This document shows positions 43,888-61,876 of a stretch of DNA of 64,000 nt, one piece after another. The position numbers and the translations under genes are program-made. The notes beneath the pieces are model-generated. The model was not told the DNA's origin, ran no database searches, and saw only the letters and a program-made list of their open reading frames with translations. Positions within the stretch are counted from its first letter, which is position 1, and every line of letters begins with the position of its first letter. The DNA lies in contig NZ_JAFEUN010000004.1 of NCBI RefSeq assembly GCF_016900895.1, positions 1-64,000 of the forward strand, written 5' to 3'. This DNA is from Parashewanella hymeniacidonis (GTDB lineage: Bacteria; Pseudomonadota; Gammaproteobacteria; Enterobacterales; Shewanellaceae).

Positions 43888-46803
43888 GTGCCTGAACAAA
43901 CTTTAGTAAAAACGGAACTTGAAAATGTATTAACGGTTGGTGGAAATAATGACCATCTTTTAGAGAAGATACGTTACGCCATTAACCACGCTACTGAGAT
44001 TGATATTGCGGTATCTTTTATAAAACAATCTGGTTTAAAGTTAATTTTACCCGCCATTCAAGAAGCCATTGAGCGCCAGCAAACATCAAAATCACCTTTA
44101 AAGCTTCGTATCATAACTTCAGATTATCTTGATATTACTTGCCCAATCGCTTTGCGAGAGTTAATAGCACTAGAAGGCACTGGTGTAGAACTTAAAATAT
44201 ATACCGAAAAGAACCGCAGTTTTCATATGAAATCCTACATCTTTGTACGGACAAATGAAGCTGGCAGTTTTTATCATGGCGCTGCATTTATTGGTTCTAA
44301 CAATATCAGTGAAAGTGCTCTTACTTTTGGACATGAATGGTGTTTACGTTATGATTATAAATCCCCTGATGACTCCTTTGAAGCACTGCAATTCAAGCGT
44401 ATTCGTAAAGAGTTTGATAATATTTTTGATCATCAGCACTCAACAACGCTAACAGATGGATGGATTAATCAATACATAAAGCGTCGTAAGAAACCGAGCT
44501 TGCAAATGGTCGGTGCTGATTGGATTGATGATGAAGAATATCTACCTAACTCAGCACAAGAAGAAGCGCTTCAAGCTTTGTCCGAAACTCGTTTATTAGA
44601 TTATGTTTCTGGTTTGGTAGTTCTTGCAACAGGAATGGGTAAAACTTGGCTAGCCGCATTTGACGCTAAACAAATGCAAGCGAAACGGGTGCTATTTGTT
44701 GCACACAGAGAAGAAATTTTATCGCAAGCATTGAATACCTTCGCCAAGCTTTGGCCTGAAAAAACGTCTGGTTTTTACAATTCGCAAAATAAAAATATCG
44801 ATAAAGGTATGCTGTTTGCGTCAGTTCAGACGTTAGGCAAACAATCTCATTTGAAGAAATTCAAACAAGATCATTTTGATTACATCGTGGTGGACGAATT
44901 TCATCATGCTAGTGCCAAAACCTATCGCAATATCATTAGTCATTTTGCGCCTAAATTCCTATTAGGCTTAACAGCAACTCCAGAGCGAACCGATCAAGCT
45001 GATATTCTATCGTTGTGTTCTGACAATCTAGTGTTTGAACGAACACTTATTGATGGCATTAACTCAAAATTGTTAGTGCCATTTCATTATTACGGGATTT
45101 GGGATGAGTGTGTCGATTACCAAGCTATCCCGTGGCGCAATGGTAAGTTTGATCCTAAAGCTTTAGATGCTGAGTTTGCGACCAAGAAACGTGCAAATCA
45201 TATTTTTAAACACTGGCACCAAAAGCAACAAAGCAGAACTTTAGCATTTTGCGTGTCGAAGAATCATGCCGATTACATGGCCGATGAATTTAACTCACAC
45301 TTTAATTCTCAGGATTACAAGGCTGTGTCCGTTCATAGCGAATCGAAAGTCAAACGTAACGAAGCATTAACCATGCTCGATAAGGGTGAGCTAAATGTGA
45401 TCTTTTCGGTCGATTTGTTTAATGAAGGAACTGATTTACCATCCATCGACACAGTAATGATGTTAAGACCAACAGAGTCGAATATCATTTTCTTGCAGCA
45501 ATTAGGGCGCGGTCTAAGATTATTTGAATCGAAAAAGCAGTTAGTTGTTTTGGATTTCATTGGTAACCATCAGTCTTTTGGCAAAGATATCGAAAAACTG
45601 GTTTCAGGTTCATCAAAAGATGATGGTGATAGGGGTGGACGACCAACTTTGCCTGATGGCTGTCATATTAATTACGACCCTGAGTTAGTCGATTTTTGGA
45701 GTTCGTTAGAACGAACGTTTACTAAATCTAATGATGAGTTTTTAGAGTTGATGACAAAGCTTAGCCATCGACCAACGGCTGCTGAGTTTTATCGAGCAGG
45801 TTATGATTTAAACAAGACAGTAAAACAGCATGGCAGTTGGTTTAATTTGGTGGCGAAGCAAACGAAAGATGCCAAGTTAGCAGACTTATTGATAAAACAT
45901 AATGATTTTCTGCTTCATGCCGTTCAGCAAACCAGAATGACTAAATCATTTAAGGGTATTTTGCTAAAAGCATTTATACAGTTAGATGGCTTTAGAACTC
46001 CACCATCATTAGAAAATTTAGCTATCAAGAGTCATCAAGTATTATCTTCATACCCAGAAATAAAAGCACTAGATCTTTCTGAAAAAGAAGCAAAGTTATT
46101 CGGGAGTGATAAGAAATGGTTGGCTTATTGGAATAAGAACCCAGTTAATTTTTCTTGTAAAGCTGATAAGAAAACAAACATATCTTGGTTCAGAATCGAT
46201 AATGATAAGTTGATAGCTAATTTTGATGTTAGCGCAGAAGATGTTGAACTATTGTCCGACTGCGTATATGAACTAGTTGAGTTTCAGCTATCTCGTTATG
46301 TTGATACAAAGAACAAAGCCAAAGTAAATCCTACAGTCCAACAGGGTCAAACAAGTATAGATAAACAAGCAATTACGAATGAAGCTGTTTCAGATAATGT
46401 GATTGAACTACCTTACTATCCCGATTTAAAAATTGCCTGCGGTCACTTTAAAACTGGAACCGATGAGAATGAAGAATTTAAGGCAGTTGATTTATACAAT
46501 GTCGACCCGCAAAAGCATTTTTTAGCTCGGGCTTCAGGTAACTCTATGAATGGCGGCAAAAATCCTATTGAGGATGATGATTTATTATTGTTAGAAAAAA
46601 TCACTCCGGTAAATGCTGGATCGATCACTGGTGTTACTGTAGCCATTGAGCGACAAAGTTATGCTGGCGATAATGAATATTTACTCCGAGTGGTTGAAAA
46701 ACGCAATGGTCAGTATTGGTTAAGAGCAAATAATCCTGACTATAAAACCATACCCGCAACGGATGATATGGTAACTTTTGCACGTTTTAAGCAAGTGCTG
46801 TAA
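43888..46803 (+). CDS. PLD-helicase fusion with a C-terminal S24/LexA-like domain
   Basis: 971 residues. An N-terminal phospholipase D-like domain (HMKSYIF and GAAFIGSNNISESAL, about residues 110-150) is followed by a superfamily 2 helicase: Walker A ATGMGKT near 250, DEFHH in motif II, GLTATPERTD in motif III, and FNEGTDLPSIDTVMMLRPTES with QQLGRGLRL in motifs V-VI. It resembles the PLD/ResIII/DUF3427 helicases. The last 120 residues look like an S24 peptidase fold (ARASGNSMNGG, then IEDDDLLLLEKI, ANNPDYKTI). The usual catalytic Lys position appears to be Arg (EYLLRVVEK). The start is GTG. Cargo, possibly defence or DNA processing. Confidence 0.8.
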   Translation: MPEQTLVKTELENVLTVGGNNDHLLEKIRYAINHATEIDIAVSFIKQSGLKLILPAIQEAIERQQTSKSPLKLRIITSDYLDITCPIALRELIALEGTGVELKIYTEKNRSFHMKSYIFVRTNEAGSFYHGAAFIGSNNISESALTFGHEWCLRYDYKSPDDSFEALQFKRIRKEFDNIFDHQHSTTLTDGWINQYIKRRKKPSLQMVGADWIDDEEYLPNSAQEEALQALSETRLLDYVSGLVVLATGMGKTWLAAFDAKQMQAKRVLFVAHREEILSQALNTFAKLWPEKTSGFYNSQNKNIDKGMLFASVQTLGKQSHLKKFKQDHFDYIVVDEFHHASAKTYRNIISHFAPKFLLGLTATPERTDQADILSLCSDNLVFERTLIDGINSKLLVPFHYYGIWDECVDYQAIPWRNGKFDPKALDAEFATKKRANHIFKHWHQKQQSRTLAFCVSKNHADYMADEFNSHFNSQDYKAVSVHSESKVKRNEALTMLDKGELNVIFSVDLFNEGTDLPSIDTVMMLRPTESNIIFLQQLGRGLRLFESKKQLVVLDFIGNHQSFGKDIEKLVSGSSKDDGDRGGRPTLPDGCHINYDPELVDFWSSLERTFTKSNDEFLELMTKLSHRPTAAEFYRAGYDLNKTVKQHGSWFNLVAKQTKDAKLADLLIKHNDFLLHAVQQTRMTKSFKGILLKAFIQLDGFRTPPSLENLAIKSHQVLSSYPEIKALDLSEKEAKLFGSDKKWLAYWNKNPVNFSCKADKKTNISWFRIDNDKLIANFDVSAEDVELLSDCVYELVEFQLSRYVDTKNKAKVNPTVQQGQTSIDKQAITNEAVSDNVIELPYYPDLKIACGHFKTGTDENEEFKAVDLYNVDPQKHFLARASGNSMNGGKNPIEDDDLLLLEKITPVNAGSITGVTVAIERQSYAGDNEYLLRVVEKRNGQYWLRANNPDYKTIPATDDMVTFARFKQVL

Positions 46804-49760: not shown

Positions 49761-50420
49761 CTAACGTTCAATGCTTGTGTCATTAGCATCGCTTTCATGA
49801 GCGAGTGTTGAGACTTGTTTATCTCTAAATTTTATCTTTTTAAAACTAGGCGTAGCCTCTGCTGCTATTCCTAAACTTTCTAGTTCATTTGCAAATTGTT
49901 CTCGCCATATTTGTGGCAAGCCTTTTCTTACGTGCAGTCGTTTACCGTCAAATCCTAAATTCTTAACTGTTAAATGAACGTGTGGGCTGTCGGTGTCAGT
50001 GTGTAGAGCAAACACATATTGATGGTTTTCGGCAAAAGTCTTTTTAGCAAATGAGCGAACAGCCTGTTTTACAGTTTTAGGCTCAGTTCCGAACGGCATG
50101 GATAGGACAAGGTGGGTGTTGTGGCGAGTTTTGAATCTTTGCTGAATGTCTGTGTTGCTCCAATCTTTAGCGAGTTGATGGATGTTAGGTTGGTTTTGGT
50201 AAATCAAACCTGTTTCATCTTCTAGTTCAAGTTTTCCATTACGGCTGATGTAGTCGAAATGATTCATGGTATGGGCGCTGTTGTAGCCAAAACCGCTAAC
50301 TTTAACCATAACTTCTGGTGGCTTTTTTGTATAACTACTGCTTCCTCGAATACGGTTGGACTTGGTTTTGACATCATTGTTGAGTAGATCAGAGATGGAG
50401 TCGTTAACTATTTTGCTCAT
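49761..50420 (-). CDS. Relaxase, short MOB-type
   Basis: 219 residues. The N-terminal nicking domain shows HTMNHFDYISRNGK with the likely catalytic Tyr, and the metal-binding motif HTDTDSPHVHLTVK. It is shorter than most conjugative relaxases, with no C-terminal helicase, primase or other domain; the separate TOPRIM/LPD7 gene may supply that. It overlaps mobC by 17 bp. Orientation is opposite to the virB operon. It should nick at oriT, probably the region right of mobC. Confidence 0.85.
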   Translation of the reverse strand: MSKIVNDSISDLLNNDVKTKSNRIRGSSSYTKKPPEVMVKVSGFGYNSAHTMNHFDYISRNGKLELEDETGLIYQNQPNIHQLAKDWSNTDIQQRFKTRHNTHLVLSMPFGTEPKTVKQAVRSFAKKTFAENHQYVFALHTDTDSPHVHLTVKNLGFDGKRLHVRKGLPQIWREQFANELESLGIAAEATPSFKKIKFRDKQVSTLAHESDANDTSIER

Positions 50421-50931
50421 AATCCAGCTCCCATCTTTTACAGTTTTTATGGATCAAGTCATTAACCAGTGTTTGGTGTGCGGTAAATTTGTTATCCAGC
50501 ATTTCAATCATTTCACGAGTGACTTTATCACTGTGGCGATAGTCGATGTTTAACACTCTGGCGATTTGATTCAGGTTACGGCCAATAGCGGCTAAGTGAC
50601 GGTTGGATTCTCTGAGTACTTTTATCTCGTCATCTGTTAATACGGGCTGACGATTTAGGTTTGCCATAATGGAAGCTCGAACCCAAGTGCTTTGGTTTAG
50701 GTAGCCTTCGGCAATTGCTTGCTGTGTGAGTTTATCCAACGTGTAACGGGTTAGGCGAACAGAGACTCGTTCAGTTTTAACTTCGTTAAAGTGATTGTCA
50801 TTGCCAGTAGCTGGTGTGACTTTGTTAAGCATCATTCGCAATGCATCAGATTGACTTAAACCACAGTCATTACAAAGCTGTTTTAGGTTAGATTTTTCAA
50901 TGTCTGTGAGACGTATTTCAACTCTGGCCAT
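50404..50931 (-). CDS. mobC: MobC-like relaxosome accessory protein
   Basis: 175 residues. The N-terminus (VEIRLTDIEKSNLKQLCNDCGLSQSDALRMML) and the middle (ERVSVRLTRYTLDKLTQQAIAEGYLNQSTWVRASIM) look like two ribbon-helix-helix segments. The following LRESNRHLAAIGRNLNQIARVLN is the MobC signature. It binds near oriT and helps open the DNA for the relaxase. It starts next to the candidate oriT region. Confidence 0.85.
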   Translation of the reverse strand: MARVEIRLTDIEKSNLKQLCNDCGLSQSDALRMMLNKVTPATGNDNHFNEVKTERVSVRLTRYTLDKLTQQAIAEGYLNQSTWVRASIMANLNRQPVLTDDEIKVLRESNRHLAAIGRNLNQIARVLNIDYRHSDKVTREMIEMLDNKFTAHQTLVNDLIHKNCKRWELDYEQNS

Positions 50932-51251: not shown

Positions 51252-52175
51252 TTACATCGGAAAATCAAGCTCGCTATCGGTTGATTCGACTATGCTTCTC
51301 TTTGCTTCATTCAAAATTGCAGTTAGAGTTGAGAGCATGTAGGTTTTGAACTTATCTGTAGCTAAGGTTGCTTCAAAAATATCTAGTGGTAAAAAACGCT
51401 TCATTTCATCTGATAAAGGAGCACCAAAAACAATCTGTTCAAGAGAAGCAATTCGATTATCGAGCATATCGATAAAACCGTCGAGCTTATAGTCTTCAAT
51501 TTTTTTACTTACTAAGTTTTTATCTACTTTTGCTCCCTTACGATGAAGAAAGACGAGATCCCACACATCTCTATGCCTCACATACTTCTGTGTTGCAGGT
51601 AAAGAGATGATTTTATCTGCCATTACTTCATTTAGACTTTCGGTGAAAATAAGTGTCGATGAGTAGCCGTCAGGCAAAAAATCGTAGTTGCTATTTAGAG
51701 GTAACGGCTCCTTTGTGTATGCGGGAATGTTTGCAACTTCAAGTTTCACCCTCTGTTTTGGAAGGTGTTTCTGTGTTGGCGATGTTACAACAGAAATTTG
51801 CCATTTATCGATATTTAGCTCAGCGTATTTAGGATCTTGTTTTAATGAACTAGGCTCTTTAACGCTCACCTCTAACCCATACCGATTGCCGATATATTTT
51901 TCGATAACGTGTTTGATGTCAGCAAGCATCTTGCTATTGAAGTTTTTACCTCCAGCAAAGTTTAAGTCCTCACTATATCTATTGGAGTCTCTACATAAGC
52001 GCAGGGATGTACCTCCTTGAAATACTAATTTATCGAGTAGCTTGGCTTCGTCTAATGCAAATAAGATATCGTAATGAAGGAGCTCCTTTTCAACGACAGG
52101 GCGCATATTTTTGATTTTGCCTTGTGACATTGCTAACTCTACCAGCGCATCAAAATCTTCTTTGGATTTAGTCAT
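51252..52175 (-). CDS. abiEii: AbiEii toxin (nucleotidyltransferase)
   Basis: 307 residues. The motif VFQGGTSLRLCRDSNRYSEDLNFAG is the nucleotidyltransferase core of the AbiEii/AbiGii family. Later regions DYLPDGYSSTLIFTESLNEVMADKIISL-like (YDFLPDGYSSTLIFTESLNE) and RHRDVWDLVFL are also typical. These toxins block growth by modifying tRNA and act in phage abortive infection. It overlaps the antitoxin by 8 bp. Intact. Confidence 0.9.
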   Translation of the reverse strand: MTKSKEDFDALVELAMSQGKIKNMRPVVEKELLHYDILFALDEAKLLDKLVFQGGTSLRLCRDSNRYSEDLNFAGGKNFNSKMLADIKHVIEKYIGNRYGLEVSVKEPSSLKQDPKYAELNIDKWQISVVTSPTQKHLPKQRVKLEVANIPAYTKEPLPLNSNYDFLPDGYSSTLIFTESLNEVMADKIISLPATQKYVRHRDVWDLVFLHRKGAKVDKNLVSKKIEDYKLDGFIDMLDNRIASLEQIVFGAPLSDEMKRFLPLDIFEATLATDKFKTYMLSTLTAILNEAKRSIVESTDSELDFPM

Positions 52176-52707
52176 CAGCCATTGCCTCCATATCTACTAA
52201 GTGGATGTTTCGACCTACACGTTTTAAATCTCTGAGTGCAGCCATCTTTGAGGCAACTCGAAGAGGGCTGTCAGTTGCGATTACTTGGTTCAAAATATTT
52301 TTGATCGTTCTTTTGGTGTGAGTGAACTCAATTACACCATAATTTGTTTTGTAAATACCTTTGACGCCGGTTGTCATTAGAGTAAGCCTGTCTACTGGGA
52401 TTTGAGAGATTACACCATATGATGATAATGCAGACTCTAGACTAATGTAGTTATAGGCTCCTCTTCTAAGTGCAGTGGCAATATATTCAATGGTCTTCGA
52501 GGAATGCTTATTTCTTGAAAAACCATATACGTAGACCCCCCTAGCAACACGCTCTAATAACCCTGTTTTAGCAAAACGTGCGAGGCTATCGTTCAGCGAG
52601 CGAATAGAGTCTTCGTGGAATATCTTTGCTAAGTCCCGATGTAAAAATACATAGTGACCTTTCGAGTCGAGGTCGTTAAGTCGACTGATTGCTAATTCTT
52701 GCCTCAT
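52168..52707 (-). CDS. abiEi: AbiEi antitoxin
   Basis: 179 residues. An N-terminal winged helix (GHYVFLHRDLAKIFHEDSIRSLNDSLARFAKTGLLERVARGVYVYG) is followed by the AbiEi domain (EYIATALRRGAYNYISLESALSSYGVISQIPVDRLTLMTTG). The protein represses its own operon and counteracts AbiEii. First gene of the pair, normal length. Confidence 0.88.
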   Translation of the reverse strand: MRQELAISRLNDLDSKGHYVFLHRDLAKIFHEDSIRSLNDSLARFAKTGLLERVARGVYVYGFSRNKHSSKTIEYIATALRRGAYNYISLESALSSYGVISQIPVDRLTLMTTGVKGIYKTNYGVIEFTHTKRTIKNILNQVIATDSPLRVASKMAALRDLKRVGRNIHLVDMEAMADD

Positions 52708-53482: not shown

Positions 53483-53980
53483 ATGACTTTTGGAGAGCGT
53501 TTAGATTACACATTGCGGACACTGCATATTAATCAGTCTGAACTCAGTAGGCGCTCAGGTGTAGCGCAGCAGACCATTAATTACATCATTCAAAGAAAAC
53601 TTCATAAGTCTAAGTTCGCTTATCAACTTGCTGATGCTTTAAACGTAAACCCTACATGGCTAGTACATGGTTTTGGCCGATTTGAATCCAGTTTTTCGAG
53701 AGACACACCCATCATCAGAAGTTACGTCGACCTACAAACATTTCTCAGGCAAGGGCAGTTACCCAACCACAATAAATATCTCATTGTTGAACAAGATCTT
53801 GGCGAGTCATGTTTTGCATTTCAGACCGACTTAACCGAAGTCATTATTTGCACTAATCAAGACACTTTTGGCGCTAAAGAATTTTTAAAAATAGAACCCT
53901 TACAAATCGAAATAGTAATAAACCCAGGCAGTAACACTTACCCAATTTATGAGATAAGGAGGCGGTGTAATGAGTTTTAA
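53483..53980 (+). CDS. XRE-family regulator A
   Basis: 165 residues. The N-terminal helix-turn-helix (TFGERLDYTLRTLHINQSELSRRSGVAQQTINYIIQRKLHKSKFAYQLADALNVNPTWLV) is clear. The C-terminal part (TPIIRSYVDLQTFLRQGQLP, FAFQTDLTEVIICTN, NPGSNTYPIYEIRRR) matches that of regulator B at 55624 but not a family I can name. It overlaps a 110-residue partner by 11 bp. Together with the same pair at 55624-56443 it brackets a transporter and a VOC protein. Confidence 0.8.
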   Translation: MTFGERLDYTLRTLHINQSELSRRSGVAQQTINYIIQRKLHKSKFAYQLADALNVNPTWLVHGFGRFESSFSRDTPIIRSYVDLQTFLRQGQLPNHNKYLIVEQDLGESCFAFQTDLTEVIICTNQDTFGAKEFLKIEPLQIEIVINPGSNTYPIYEIRRRCNEF

Positions 53981-54302
53981 ACATTTTAAGGAATCTATTG
54001 ATTATGCGCTAAGCAGCTTGAGTGCTCAGTCTACCTATATTTTCATTGAACAGCTGGTATTTATGGATGGTAAATTTTGGTTGAAGTTTCGGCTTGGTAG
54101 TAGCTTAAAAGTTCATGCTGAGCCGATTGAAGTGCTCGACAAGCTATATGATTCATCGTCATTCAACGCCATTCAATATGCTAAATTTCAGCGATACAAA
54201 GGCATTAACCAAGTCTATCACGAATTCATTAAGCGCCAATGTCCTGAAGCTAAATCAAGCTACATTTCTTATGTGTTAAGAGAGGTGCAAAATGACGCCT
54301 AG
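53970..54302 (+). CDS. Partner protein A of the XRE regulator, unknown
   Basis: 110 residues, beginning inside the regulator stop (ATGAGTTTTAA). No known domain. It is similar in length and in the pattern LEQLVFMDGKFWLKFRLGSSLKVHAEPIEVLDKLY to partner B (HIEFLRLQYFDDQFWVEYKFNTSSKTYNEP), where FW-Y/F-K/R-F and a Glu-Pro occur at matched places. It overlaps the transporter gene by 11 bp, so the cassette is one operon. Confidence 0.65.
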   Translation: MSFKHFKESIDYALSSLSAQSTYIFIEQLVFMDGKFWLKFRLGSSLKVHAEPIEVLDKLYDSSSFNAIQYAKFQRYKGINQVYHEFIKRQCPEAKSSYISYVLREVQNDA

Positions 54303-54972
54303 TTCTGATGTAAAACTCATACTTAAACGCTCTTATATAAACTACTTACTGATTGGTTTATTGATCACATCATCCATTGCATCACATTTGATGGCGAATC
54401 GTTTGCTGGATATCTTTGGCTTTCCGGTGATACCCGCTACCTTCACTTATATGTTGGTATTTTCATTATCCGATATGTTGGCTGCTTTGAATCCTCGTCG
54501 ATTTGTGGTGTGTGTGCTGGTGGGTGAAGCTCTGGCAAACTTATATTGGGTGGGATTTGCAACGGGTGTCAATGCATCGCCTGCGCCAGAGTTTTTTCAG
54601 CTAAGCCAGTCTTATCAAGATGTGTTTGGCAGTGTGCCACAATTGTTTTTAGCGAATCTTGGCGGTGGTTTGATCATCAGCATCTTAGATATTTTCTTGT
54701 TTTCACACTGGTATCGAGTGAAAAAGCATTCCTTTTTTAGAGCCTCTTTATTTTCAACGGTTGTGAGCATCAGTGCTTACACCTATTTCACTGACTACTT
54801 TGGGTTCAAAGGCAGTTATCCGCACCATGTGCTTACATTGGCGCATGTGAATACCATTACCAATATGATGTTTGTTTTGGTGTATTCCATTATTAGCGCC
54901 TACTTAATGAAACACATCATTAAGTACATCAAAAGCAGCAATATTGGAGAATATCAGCATGATTCAGTTTGA
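54292..54972 (+). CDS. VUT-like membrane transporter (queuosine-precursor transporter type)
   Basis: 226 residues with about six membrane helices. The N-terminal segment SSIASHLMANRLLDIFGFPVIPATFTYMLVFSLSDMLAALNPRR resembles the YhhQ/VUT family (N-lle-x-A-N-K pattern and FxLSD). This family takes up queuosine precursors in several bacteria. The ligand here is unknown, because the family identity rests on general layout. Overlaps both neighbours, so it is strictly coupled. Confidence 0.6.
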   Translation: MTPSSDVKLILKRSYINYLLIGLLITSSIASHLMANRLLDIFGFPVIPATFTYMLVFSLSDMLAALNPRRFVVCVLVGEALANLYWVGFATGVNASPAPEFFQLSQSYQDVFGSVPQLFLANLGGGLIISILDIFLFSHWYRVKKHSFFRASLFSTVVSISAYTYFTDYFGFKGSYPHHVLTLAHVNTITNMMFVLVYSIISAYLMKHIIKYIKSSNIGEYQHDSV

Positions 54973-55534
54973 AGGTTTTAGCCACATTAATATCGTTGTC
55001 GATGATATGGACGCAGCACTAGCCTTTTATCAAAACCTATTCGGTGCCGTTCCACAGCAAGCTTTTCCACATTTTAAGAATGTAGGCTTTGCAAAATCAG
55101 CTGGATTTATGGAGCAGCCTGAAGATGTTGATGTTTCTATCACATTCTTAGAGATCCCAAATACTGGCGTGTTTTTGGAATTAATGGAATATCACAACCC
55201 ACAAGGCATGGAAAATCTCGATGAAAAATACAGTAATGATTTAGGAAATGTCGGTCACATTGCATTGAAGGTAAAAAATATTGAGCAGGCTTTTGAGTTT
55301 GTAAAAGCGCAAAAAAGTGTGCAATTGATCTCTGATGATGAAGGTTATCAGCCGTTTAAAATCGATAATATTAATAAGGATGAGTTTTACTTCTTTGATA
55401 AAAGCAAAGAACAAGATGACGCTGAAAAACAAGCCGTGTGTGATGTGGTTTCAAATATTCGGTATTTCTATTTCGTGGATCAATATGGCGTGCAGTGGGA
55501 ACTTGAGCAAGGGCATAGTGATATAGGCTCGTAA
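54959..55534 (+). CDS. VOC-superfamily (glyoxalase/dioxygenase-like) protein
   Basis: 191 residues from the ATG at 54959, with GGAG upstream, overlapping the transporter by 14 bp. Two beta-alpha-beta-beta-beta modules: FSHINIVVDDMDAALAFYQNLFGA with His, FLELMEYHNPQG with Glu, NVGHIALKVKNIEQAFEFV with His and VQWELEQG with Glu. These are the usual metal-binding positions. The substrate is unknown. Confidence 0.78.
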   Translation: MIQFEGFSHINIVVDDMDAALAFYQNLFGAVPQQAFPHFKNVGFAKSAGFMEQPEDVDVSITFLEIPNTGVFLELMEYHNPQGMENLDEKYSNDLGNVGHIALKVKNIEQAFEFVKAQKSVQLISDDEGYQPFKIDNINKDEFYFFDKSKEQDDAEKQAVCDVVSNIRYFYFVDQYGVQWELEQGHSDIGS

Positions 55535-55623
55535 TCACTGTTTTGATTATCAATAATTAATTTGACTAATAATACAAAAACGCTTGTATTTAAGGGGAAT
55601 AAAAATCCCTCAGAGACAAGTTA

Positions 55624-56127
55624 ATGGAAACCACATTAGGCGAACGACTAGAGCGTGCACTGATTGAAGTGCAAATGACCCAAAGCCAGCTTGCACAAAA
55701 GGCTGGTGTAACTCAACAAGCCATCAGTTACATCATAAAACATAAGGTTGATGAGACTAAGATGGCACCAAAACTCGCAGAGGCGCTCGGTGTTAACCCA
55801 AGTTGGTTGATACTAGGAATAGGGCGGTTATACAAAGATTTTGGTACAGAGCTGCCAATTATTAGTAGCTTTGTATTGCTACAAAAATTTTTGAGAGATG
55901 GTGTTACACCGCCGGGAACACCAACGGTTTTGACTGAAGCTGATTTAAGTCCATCAGCATTCGCATATCAAACCGAATTACATAAGGTAGCGCTTTGTGA
56001 TTTAAGTGATGACTTTAATGCAACGGAGTTTTTGCATGTTCAAGGGGCGCAATTGGAAGTGGTCACTGAGCCGATGACAAACGCTTATCCGATTTATGAG
56101 TGGAGAGTACGTAGTGTCGAGTTTTAG
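55624..56127 (+). CDS. XRE-family regulator B
   Basis: 167 residues. Helix-turn-helix TLGERLERALIEVQMTQSQLAQKAGVTQQAISYIIKHKVDETKMAPKLAEALGVNPSWLI. The rest parallels regulator A (ELPIISSFVLLQKFLRDG, FAYQTELHKVALCD, TNAYPIYEWRVRSVEF). The similarity is clear but not close, so the duplication is old. It overlaps partner B by 14 bp. Confidence 0.8.
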   Translation: METTLGERLERALIEVQMTQSQLAQKAGVTQQAISYIIKHKVDETKMAPKLAEALGVNPSWLILGIGRLYKDFGTELPIISSFVLLQKFLRDGVTPPGTPTVLTEADLSPSAFAYQTELHKVALCDLSDDFNATEFLHVQGAQLEVVTEPMTNAYPIYEWRVRSVEF

Positions 56128-56443
56128 TCCGTTAAGGCAAGTTAAAGATTGGTTTCTCTTTCACAAAGGTAATGGCGGTGTGAGTAAGCTGCATATTGAG
56201 TTTTTGCGATTGCAGTATTTCGACGATCAATTCTGGGTGGAGTATAAATTCAATACTTCATCTAAAACCTACAACGAACCGCTAGGCATTGTTGCTGAAA
56301 TGATGAAGTCCTATCAAGTTACTAAAAAACAGTATGAAACGTTTCAACATTACCTCTCACTCAATAGCCTATACTGCGGCGTGTTTCAGTTCTTGCCTAA
56401 TCGTTTAAAACAGAAGTATGTGGATTATGCTCTGAGCGATTGA
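56114..56443 (+). CDS. Partner protein B of the XRE regulator, unknown
   Basis: 109 residues from a GTG at 56114, chosen because it corresponds to the partner A start (same place relative to the regulator stop) and has GGAG 8 bp upstream; an ATG at 56096 is possible. No known domain; rich in aromatic residues (FWVEYKFNTSSKTYNEPLG, YETFQHYLSL). The end of the cassette. Confidence 0.6.
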   Translation: MSSFSPLRQVKDWFLFHKGNGGVSKLHIEFLRLQYFDDQFWVEYKFNTSSKTYNEPLGIVAEMMKSYQVTKKQYETFQHYLSLNSLYCGVFQFLPNRLKQKYVDYALSD

Positions 56444-56787: not shown

Positions 56788-57141
56788 TGGGCTCTATGAT
56801 TTAATTGATACCGATAATTTACTGCCACTGTAATCAGGAGGAAGAGCAAGTCAACTTTGATAGAAACTTGAAAAACTTTGTTGTACTTGCTTTAAGAAAA
56901 GCCTGTTATCTCTAAACATCTCACCTTGTTAGCAATAAATCCAATCAATCATTAAACAAGTTTAATCAATATTAATTTGATTGATTTGTTATTTGTCGGC
57001 ATAAACAGAAATAAATACAACATATTTTGTATATTTGTATTTGTTTGCATCGTTTTACATTTTTAATCGGCGTAAACACAGAGCTGTCATGGACATAATT
57101 ACAGGGACGAACTCTTATGGTTTTTAAAGTTGGAGTGCGTT
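56788..57141. other. Intergenic stretch of 354 bp with inverted repeats upstream of alpA
   Basis: Contains the nested palindrome ATTAAAC-AA-GTTTAAT (56951-56966) and the flanking 9-bp inverted repeat AATCAATCA/TGATTGATT (56943-56951 and 56978-56986). It could be an operator for alpA or the antitoxin. The rest is AT-rich without recognisable structure. Confidence 0.45.
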
Positions 57142-57348
57142 ATGAAAACTGGAACTAAGCTTGAACAAACTTGGTATACCCAACGTGAACTTTCTGAATA
57201 CTTAGGAATTTGTGAATCCACCCTGTGGCGTTGGCGTAAAGATAAGCGTTTTCCTCAGCCTCATATGAGAGTTAGACGCAACGGTAAATTGCGTGGTGGG
57301 CGTTATCATATCAAAATGGTTGAGGCTTTTATGCGCCACAAACTGTAG
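57142..57348 (+). CDS. AlpA-like excisionase/regulator
   Basis: 68 residues. The ATG at 57142 has TGGAG upstream. The helix-turn-helix YTQRELSEYLGICESTLWRWRKDKRFPQPHMRV matches the AlpA family of phage and island regulators, which drive integrase expression or act as excisionase. The following primase-helicase gene starts 10 bp later. Likely controls excision of this element. Confidence 0.8.
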   Translation: MKTGTKLEQTWYTQRELSEYLGICESTLWRWRKDKRFPQPHMRVRRNGKLRGGRYHIKMVEAFMRHKL

Positions 57349-60136: not shown

Positions 60137-61876
60137 ATGAAGTTAATTGACTCATTGATCATGGCTAATGCTGATAGCCTTAAAGTTCGTTATAAAAAAT
60201 ATTTCTCAAAAAGTCCTTCTATGACCCGTAAAGCTGATATTGCTGTAGAGCTAGAAAAAGGGTTAATGGCACCAATGGTTTTAAAAAACTATTGGGAGAA
60301 TATGCCAGAGCTTGAAAAGATCCTTATACAGGAAGTCATATACAACTTTCAGGGCATGATTGATGCAATACGTTTTAAGGCAAAATATGGCGCATTTCCC
60401 GGTAAGCCTCCAAGCAAGTCATTATACGGTTATGAAAAAGAAATTAATGCCTATCAGGTGTTTTTCTACCCACAAGAGCGATATGGGCAGAGCTTAATTC
60501 ACCAAACTTTGATTGAACAATTAAAGCAGTTTGTTCCTGCACCCAAAGCAGAAAAAATAGCGACTGTCGATTTTTCAGAGCCATTAGAAGAACATTATAC
60601 AATGCATAATCGAGAGCAGAGTGCTTTCTCTGATCTCAATACGATGCTGACATCACTGAATAATAAAGAGCTTAAAGTCAGTGACAAGACTGGAGTACCT
60701 ACCGCTGGTGCTTTAAAAAAACTGTCTGCTAAATTGTCAGAATACTACTCTGCTTCGGATCTGGATGAAGTAAAAGGAGAGGAACATATTCTTGCATATG
60801 GCTGGATAAGATTACTTGCTAATAGTCGCTTTGCCAAAGCTCAAGCCTCGTTAATTCCTTCAAAACAACAAGCGAAATCCACAGCGGAAACGATAAAATC
60901 AATTTGGGATGATTGGTGTTATAAAAGTAAAGATGAAGAATTTAATCGAATTGATGTAATCAAAGGTCAAAAAGGCAAAGCGAAAAGATATTTTTCTGAT
61001 GCTGTAGATCGTCGACTCAACGTGATTGAAGCTTTACTTGAATGTGAAGTAAATCAGTGGGTTTCATTTGATGAATTTTCCAGATTTATTTTGGCGACTG
61101 GCAGAGATATTCAAGTTACCGATGCGCCAGAGCATTTATATATTTACGATGCGCATTATGGCGGTTTGTATAATGGTGGCTGGGATATTATCGAAGAAAG
61201 TTACTTAAAGTGTTTACTTGTCGAATATATGGCAACACTGGGGGTAATCGATGTAGTCATGTACGATTTATCTCAAATATCAGACAGCAATGATGATTAT
61301 TGGGGAACGGTTGATTTGGACTGCTTGCATCGTTATCAAGGTCTAAGGTATTTCAAACTGACAGAGCTTGGTGCTTATGTACTTGGTAAAATGCCATCTT
61401 ATGACGGCAGTAATATTCCACAGAGTAAAACTTCATTAACCGTTAAAAGAAGGGGAAAGATCACTTGTAATAGTGCACTTGAGCCTTGGGAAGTTCAATT
61501 TTTATCTCTTTATGCCAAGCAAATTGATGATGATGTTTGGCAGCTAGAGCGGAAAAATATCGTGCAAGCATTGCAAGCTGGTAGTGATATAAAAGAGCTG
61601 ACAGAGTTTTTGCTAGAACGAGAGTCACAACCTTTTTTACCTGAAGATTGTGAACAATTATTTCAACAGCTCGCAAAAAACATCGATGGTGTAAAACTTC
61701 AGTCAGAAGCCATTATTTTTAAGTGTAAAAATAAAGAGATCTTTGAATTGATAACTAAAGACAAAGCGCTTTCGAAGTTATGTCAGCCATTTGAAGCTTT
61801 ACAGCTCATTATTCCTAAAAACAAAGAGTCGACCTTTAAATCAAAATTGAATGAGATTGGAGTAGGGTATTTGTGA
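60137..61876 (+). CDS. XPB/Ssl2 N-terminal-like (Helicase_C_3) protein
   Basis: 579 residues. No ATPase motifs. The C-terminal region KTSLTVKRRGKITCNSALEPWEVQFLSLYAKQIDDDVWQLERKNIVQALQ, DIKELTEFLLERESQPFLPEDCEQLFQQL resembles the XPB/Ssl2 N-terminal domain family, and the N-terminal part (RYKKYFSKSPSMTRKADIAVELEKGL) fits the helicase-associated proteins of that group. It is 114 bp downstream of the primase-helicase, same strand, so may assist it. A defence role is also possible. Confidence 0.6.
   Translation: MKLIDSLIMANADSLKVRYKKYFSKSPSMTRKADIAVELEKGLMAPMVLKNYWENMPELEKILIQEVIYNFQGMIDAIRFKAKYGAFPGKPPSKSLYGYEKEINAYQVFFYPQERYGQSLIHQTLIEQLKQFVPAPKAEKIATVDFSEPLEEHYTMHNREQSAFSDLNTMLTSLNNKELKVSDKTGVPTAGALKKLSAKLSEYYSASDLDEVKGEEHILAYGWIRLLANSRFAKAQASLIPSKQQAKSTAETIKSIWDDWCYKSKDEEFNRIDVIKGQKGKAKRYFSDAVDRRLNVIEALLECEVNQWVSFDEFSRFILATGRDIQVTDAPEHLYIYDAHYGGLYNGGWDIIEESYLKCLLVEYMATLGVIDVVMYDLSQISDSNDDYWGTVDLDCLHRYQGLRYFKLTELGAYVLGKMPSYDGSNIPQSKTSLTVKRRGKITCNSALEPWEVQFLSLYAKQIDDDVWQLERKNIVQALQAGSDIKELTEFLLERESQPFLPEDCEQLFQQLAKNIDGVKLQSEAIIFKCKNKEIFELITKDKALSKLCQPFEALQLIIPKNKESTFKSKLNEIGVGYL

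Follow-up and report, generated by a model that had tools for sequence, protein, structure and literature searches.

What are a transporter and a metal-binding enzyme doing between two copies of the same regulator-partner pair on what appears to be a mobile element? The question is posed by a cassette at positions 53483 to 56443 of the window, by which is meant the whole stretch analysed: 64,000 nucleotides (nt) of Parashewanella hymeniacidonis DNA, positions 1 to 64,000 of contig NZ_JAFEUN010000004.1, forward strand (assembly GCF_016900895.1). Its six genes encode two XRE regulators (XRE1 and XRE2), each followed by a small partner (PAR1 and PAR2), and, between the pairs, a transporter of VUT type and an enzyme of the VOC family. 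On the comparison of sequences, the cassette is real, conserved and under selection. The reading favoured here, for which the chances seem about even, is that two modules share one mobilizable element: an XRE-PAR switch, and a VUT-VOC cargo pair placed under one copy of it. The features first needed are these.

53483–53980, forward strand: XRE1, 165 residues, a repressor of 434 Cro/cI type whose C-terminal domain is short and has no S24 catalytic serine, the first gene of the operon
53970–54302, forward strand: PAR1, the 110-residue partner, with a confident AlphaFold2 model and no match to a known family or fold
54292–54972, forward strand: VUT, a 226-residue VUT-type (COG1738/Vut_1) transporter of a divergent clade
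54959–55534, forward strand: VOC, a metalloenzyme with the metal-ligand pattern H9/E74/H100/E181, 191 residues from its ATG (the list of open reading frames has it start at TTG 54944)
55535–55623, forward strand: XRE2 promoter region, TTGACT-17-TGTATT enclosing a putative 434-type operator
55574–55587, no strand assigned: operator-like palindrome ACAAAAACGCTTGT (ACAA-N6-TTGT), 36 nt ahead of the XRE2 start, its position kept in five elements
55624–56127, forward strand: XRE2, 167 residues, the paralogue of XRE1
56114–56443, forward strand: PAR2, the partner of XRE2, 109 residues from a GTG start (115 from an alternative ATG at 56096)

An earlier note, made from the letters of this DNA, had described a six-gene cassette in which both regulator-partner pairs are paralogous and the first four genes all overlap. 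That description holds. All six open reading frames are present; the overlaps of XRE1 with PAR1, PAR1 with VUT and VUT with VOC are 11, 11 and 14 nt; and identity is 46% between the regulators (E 7e-56) and 26% between the partners (E 3e-11). XRE2 and PAR2 overlap by 14 nt from the GTG start or by 32 nt from the ATG, and the partner start sits inside the last codons of the regulator. Since the stretch of XRE1 coding for IRRR reads AGGAGG, it can, we infer, be used as a ribosome site for PAR1. Where the description needs amending is in treating the six genes as a single unit: they are conserved together, but are rather a four-gene operon and, after a gap of 89 nt between VOC and XRE2, a second pair with its own promoter. 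Ratios of nonsynonymous to synonymous substitution (dN/dS) are 0.07–0.15 for XRE1, VUT and VOC, these being rough estimates as dS is high, and about 0.33–0.49 for PAR, the fastest-evolving gene of the cassette. The low ratios of the three, together with the finding of the same layout in further species, exclude a chance arrangement.

Recurrence of the cassette

An alignment of VOC scanned against 84,980 species genomes yielded 21 loci. The complete six-gene layout is found in P. curva (L061, the same locus as L033), and a second P. curva locus (L034) has five of the six genes, lacking XRE1. The four-gene order XRE-PAR-VUT-VOC is present in Arsenophonus nasoniae, on three plasmids (L027, L029, L030), where the overlaps are 8–17 nt, and in a draft genome (L039); on two of the plasmids divergent VirB genes adjoin the cassette. 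Three Photorhabdus species (L043–L045) have the same order, in the one locus measured with an XRE-PAR overlap of 26 nt and a gap of 19 nt before VOC, and here the cassette is in the chromosome, where no transfer genes were seen close by. The note had held that a cassette in which the transporter was not conserved would tell against it; all the XRE-PAR-VOC loci found contain VUT. Identity across cassettes is 55–58% for VOC, about 30% for VUT and XRE, and below 20% for PAR, and for the PAR of Arsenophonus and Photorhabdus, whose pairwise similarity is not significant, homology was called from position, length and a gapped alignment. A tree, several of whose forks are weak, groups XRE1 with XRE2 in Parashewanella, away from those of Arsenophonus and Photorhabdus, and would place their duplication inside Parashewanella, at a support below the starred level.

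Elsewhere the cassette thins out. At L049 of Vibrio sagamiensis, close to a contig end, VUT and VOC occur with no recognised regulator, and the other VOC homologues from the genome scan have no VUT alongside. A PAR profile found nothing in 368 other Gammaproteobacteria, nor, at E 1e-15, did a VUT profile in 394 further genomes of the order. Phages held no relative of VOC and viral contigs none of VOC or XRE2, the XRE profile there matching mostly the helix-turn-helix (HTH) part only. Nor did the literature yield a paper describing an XRE-PAR-VUT-VOC layout, as the note had supposed, and to our knowledge the cassette is a so far undescribed travelling unit on mobile DNA. It amounts to a conserved operon common to Parashewanella and to bacterial symbionts of insects and nematodes, carried on mobile DNA of different kinds, and brings with it a family of partner proteins and a clade of VUT transporters that wrongly invites a queuosine label.

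As a separate observation on Photorhabdus, six further species (L035–L038, L040, L042) have VOC only, and in the loci read phage-like genes, judged by eye, occupy the place of XRE, PAR and VUT. The place of the cassette precedes a dusA-like gene in L035, L036 and L043, the loci read for this.

The proposed switch and its mobile element

In sequence and in fold, the DNA-binding domain of XRE (residues 1–66 being compared) has as its best match 434 Cro, with Z 11.8 over 64 residues, a root-mean-square deviation of 1.3 and 36% identity. Nearly all the XRE regulators retain the paired glutamines of the recognition helix. ACAA-N6-TTGT is the 434-type operator consensus, and such a site, embedded in the promoter, lies 33–37 nt before the XRE2 start in all five elements, exact in four and with one mismatch in the other. 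At L061 one recognition glutamine of XRE2 is a lysine and one operator half-site reads TCAA instead of ACAA; the change of residue would fit the change of half-site, in this single case. With the phage 434 Cro/cI family, XRE shares the HTH fold, the glutamine pair and, at the XRE2 promoter, an operator-like site. It differs in its short C-terminal domain, in its translationally coupled partner and in its location on mobilizable elements and plasmids. Its C-terminal domain can be aligned with an S24 repressor of a viral contig (L062) up to the catalytic region, where the serine of the L062 protein is replaced, and the C-terminal parts gave no match to Peptidase S24. As that catalytic serine, by which the self-cleaving LexA/cI repressors are recognised, is missing, self-cleavage of XRE is not expected.

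To which of the two modules does the second pair belong? The other features needed are listed here.

49761–50420, reverse strand: MobP1-like relaxase of the mobile element
50404–50931, reverse strand: MobC/NikA-like relaxosome protein of the mobile element
57017–57030, no strand assigned: second ACAA-N6-TTGT site, 5′ of the AlpA and primase genes
57130–57348, forward strand: AlpA-like small DNA-binding protein of the mobile element, with an equivalent gene in the same place in L026, L060 and L061
57293–60022, forward strand: toprim DNA primase/helicase (phrog_1139), a core gene of the mobile element

Around the window cassette are MobC, the relaxase, AbiEi/AbiEii, the AlpA-like gene and a phage-type primase. 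At L061 the last members of the same series are a second AlpA-like gene and a tyrosine integrase, so that the host element would be classed as an integrative and mobilizable one. The L061 element matches MobP1 mobilizable elements in MobC, the relaxase, AlpA, the phrog_1139-type primase, the second AlpA-like gene and the integrase; what sets it and the window element apart from these is the XRE-PAR-VUT-VOC load. The window copy has the relaxase and MobC, and no integrase was seen among its open reading frames after the primase. Wherever the downstream side of an element could be read, XRE2 is 5′ of AlpA and primase. PAR and an XRE2-type gene also precede AlpA and primase in two sister elements, one in the genome of the window itself (L026) and one in P. 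curva (L060), but neither has VUT. Just upstream of PAR a decayed 3′ end of VOC is detectable in L060 (tblastn E 5.6e-4), the counterpart in L026 being 11 residues only (E 0.35). As XRE2-PAR is retained where VUT and VOC are gone, it goes with the element, whereas VUT-VOC can be lost; on this ground the second pair, under its own promoter, is assigned to the mobile element. The note had named occurrence of the partner alone elsewhere as a result that would count against it. In the sister elements PAR is indeed without VUT-VOC, though still beside an XRE2-type regulator.

Several side observations concern these elements. In the sister elements, an enzyme of ThiE/TenI type (PF02581, 115.6 bits) and a LuxR-type protein (L026 8629–10033; L060 8750–10225) replace the window's AbiE and VUT-VOC. 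The AbiEi/AbiEii pair of the window (51252–52707) adjoins the cassette on the opposite strand. At 60137–61876, the place taken by AlpA and integrase in related elements, is a 579-residue protein with only a weak Helicase_C_3 match. Further off, at 43888–46803, is a 971-residue protein in which a PLD-like domain and a ResIII helicase are combined with an S24 peptidase domain at the C-terminus; it matches the type IV methyl-directed restriction enzymes of PADLOC.

The note had asked for structure prediction of the partner. A confident alpha-beta fold (AlphaFold2, pLDDT 88.8) was obtained, but it matched no known fold: in the PDB and viral structures nothing reached E <1e-3, the best being E 0.075, with unrelated PX and chromo domains on top. 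No family was matched in Pfam, NCBIfam, PHROGs or PADLOC either, and the possibility that PAR is a toxin, antitoxin or phage protein of known kind was rejected on these four libraries and on fold. It is very improbable that XRE-PAR is a toxin-antitoxin module stabilising the element, with VUT-VOC a passenger. A compact unit of two overlapping genes for an HTH protein and a fast-evolving partner, on mobile elements, does have that look, but no toxin family is matched by PAR, XRE2 scores 28 bits against a HigA cut-off of 47.7, the XRE C-terminal domain is of repressor type, and PAR1 persists without XRE1 at L034, which is unexpected for a toxin.

With two modules in one element, the favoured reading, XRE-PAR would be the switch of the element, a 434-type dimeric repressor unable to cut itself, with a co-translated small partner that would bind it as antirepressor or co-repressor. 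XRE2 would repress its own promoter via ACAA-N6-TTGT and, in the window element, probably also the AlpA-primase promoter at 57017, and one XRE-PAR copy, heading the VUT-VOC operon, would set its dose. Weighing against this are points of several sorts. The 434-type operator is absent at the XRE1 promoters, so that XRE1 may read another site, and at those of Arsenophonus XRE, and no clear one was seen at the XRE promoters of Photorhabdus or Pseudomonas syringae. The 57017 site is without a clear counterpart before AlpA in other elements, and the window has five ACAA-N6-TTGT sites where 3 are expected by chance. As the XRE2 promoters are homologous, the conserved site there does not represent five independent events. 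L034 retains PAR1 with XRE1 gone, and, PAR having no known relative, it is coupling only that speaks for its binding to XRE. VOC, further, is alone in many genomes, and its function is therefore not dependent on the cassette.

The transporter and the queuosine question

The note had suggested a queuosine precursor as the substrate, and for this no support emerged. VUT belongs to Pfam Vut_1 (PF02592; 42.3 bits, gathering cut-off 27.2), the Arsenophonus VUT having no match in Pfam, and it is of similar length to QPTR/YhhQ (COG1738, TIGR00697). The characterised Vut_1 members are queuosine precursor transporters (PMC11130926). The same paper stresses that the specificity of transporters is not readable from similarity alone. 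Against the TIGR00697 equivalog for such transporters VUT scores 32.3 bits, below the cut-off of 50.95. The cassette VUTs form a separate clade and keep just one of the 16 residues that never vary among seven Shewanellaceae homologues of YhhQ; one of those seven is divergent itself, so that fewer positions count as invariant. As QueC and TGT are present in the host genome, preQ0 can probably be made there, and VOC, to which VUT is linked, is without a known role in queuosine. Salvage of a queuosine precursor by the cassette is accordingly the most far-fetched of the explanations, even allowing for the Vut_1 membership and for a second copy being able to compensate for the host's resident yhhQ-like gene, which is split by an insertion. 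Queuosine as cargo was rejected, and the molecule carried is probably a different one.

The split gene (L084 245–3305) is in two parts around about 2.3 kb, the open reading frames of which look by eye to be of IS66 type. A different divergent VUT is also found in Parashewanella, where a regulator-like protein of 215–221 residues precedes it with the genes overlapping (L085 1309–2602, also L093, L096 and L099). This pair is present in three other Parashewanella genomes and in three of the four loci adjoins a short-chain dehydrogenase.

The enzyme and the fate of its product

VOC matches Glyoxalase PF00903 (45.6 bits), and its ligands H9, E74, H100 and E181 are invariant in 23 homologues. An H-E-H-E set is in keeping with an isomerase or a lyase of the glyoxalase I/methylmalonyl-CoA epimerase branch, with which the cassette enzyme shares family and ligand pattern. 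It differs in being about 60 residues longer and in falling below all NCBIfam equivalog cut-offs (epimerase 33.5 against 114.95 bits). In the two-module reading VUT would take up, or release, a small non-queuosine metabolite that VOC, depending on metal, would isomerise or cleave.

Does the product then serve the host or the element? If VUT-VOC merely lets the host take up and use, or detoxify, an environmental compound, XRE1-PAR1 would be no more than a local repressor carried along. That is unlikely. VOC enzymes are commonly detoxification and catabolic enzymes, purifying selection on VUT and VOC is strong, and VOC homologues occur alone in unrelated contexts in Shewanella, Vibrio, Endozoicomonas and Photorhabdus, where the neighbours show no common theme. 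However, the travelling of XRE-PAR with VUT-VOC over such distances, and the shared overlaps, would be left unexplained.

Alternatively, the molecule imported by VUT and converted by VOC may induce XRE or PAR, so that spread of the element tracks that molecule, be its source host tissue or neighbours with the same element; this we regard as unlikely. The four coupled genes have stayed together on different mobile elements despite divergence to about 30% identity. With induction by self-cleavage not expected, another inducer would be needed. Some plasmid copies are beside VirB genes, and the sister elements hold another enzyme-regulator pair, the ThiE/TenI-like and LuxR-type proteins, at the same place. 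Yet no ligand or ligand pocket is known, and the Photorhabdus cassette is chromosomal and apart from any transfer genes seen. As the switch is present in two sister elements that lack VUT-VOC, it can exist without the molecule. Distinctly doubtful is the stronger form, in which the product acts, directly or via PAR, on the non-cleavable repressor to time replication and transfer. As an addition to the two-module reading, relief of XRE repression by the VUT-VOC metabolite is speculative; such feedback on the repressor, if true, would be a new coupling of surrounding chemistry to gene transfer.

Two occurrences of VOC away from the cassette deserve mention. In Fangia hongkongensis (L041 2445–6579) it adjoins an S24-type regulator, a dehydrogenase and an MFS transporter, and also beside it is a protein with a weak match to an autoinducer-binding domain; this protein could not be aligned with the LuxR-type one of the sister elements. 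On a megaplasmid of Xenorhabdus bovienii (L032 2165–12552), a cassette-like VOC, 44% identical, is in a cluster with genes for a leucyl-tRNA ligase, an LD-carboxypeptidase, asparagine synthetase A, a nucleoside phosphorylase and a methyltransferase, which resembles an antibiotic cluster with self-resistance.

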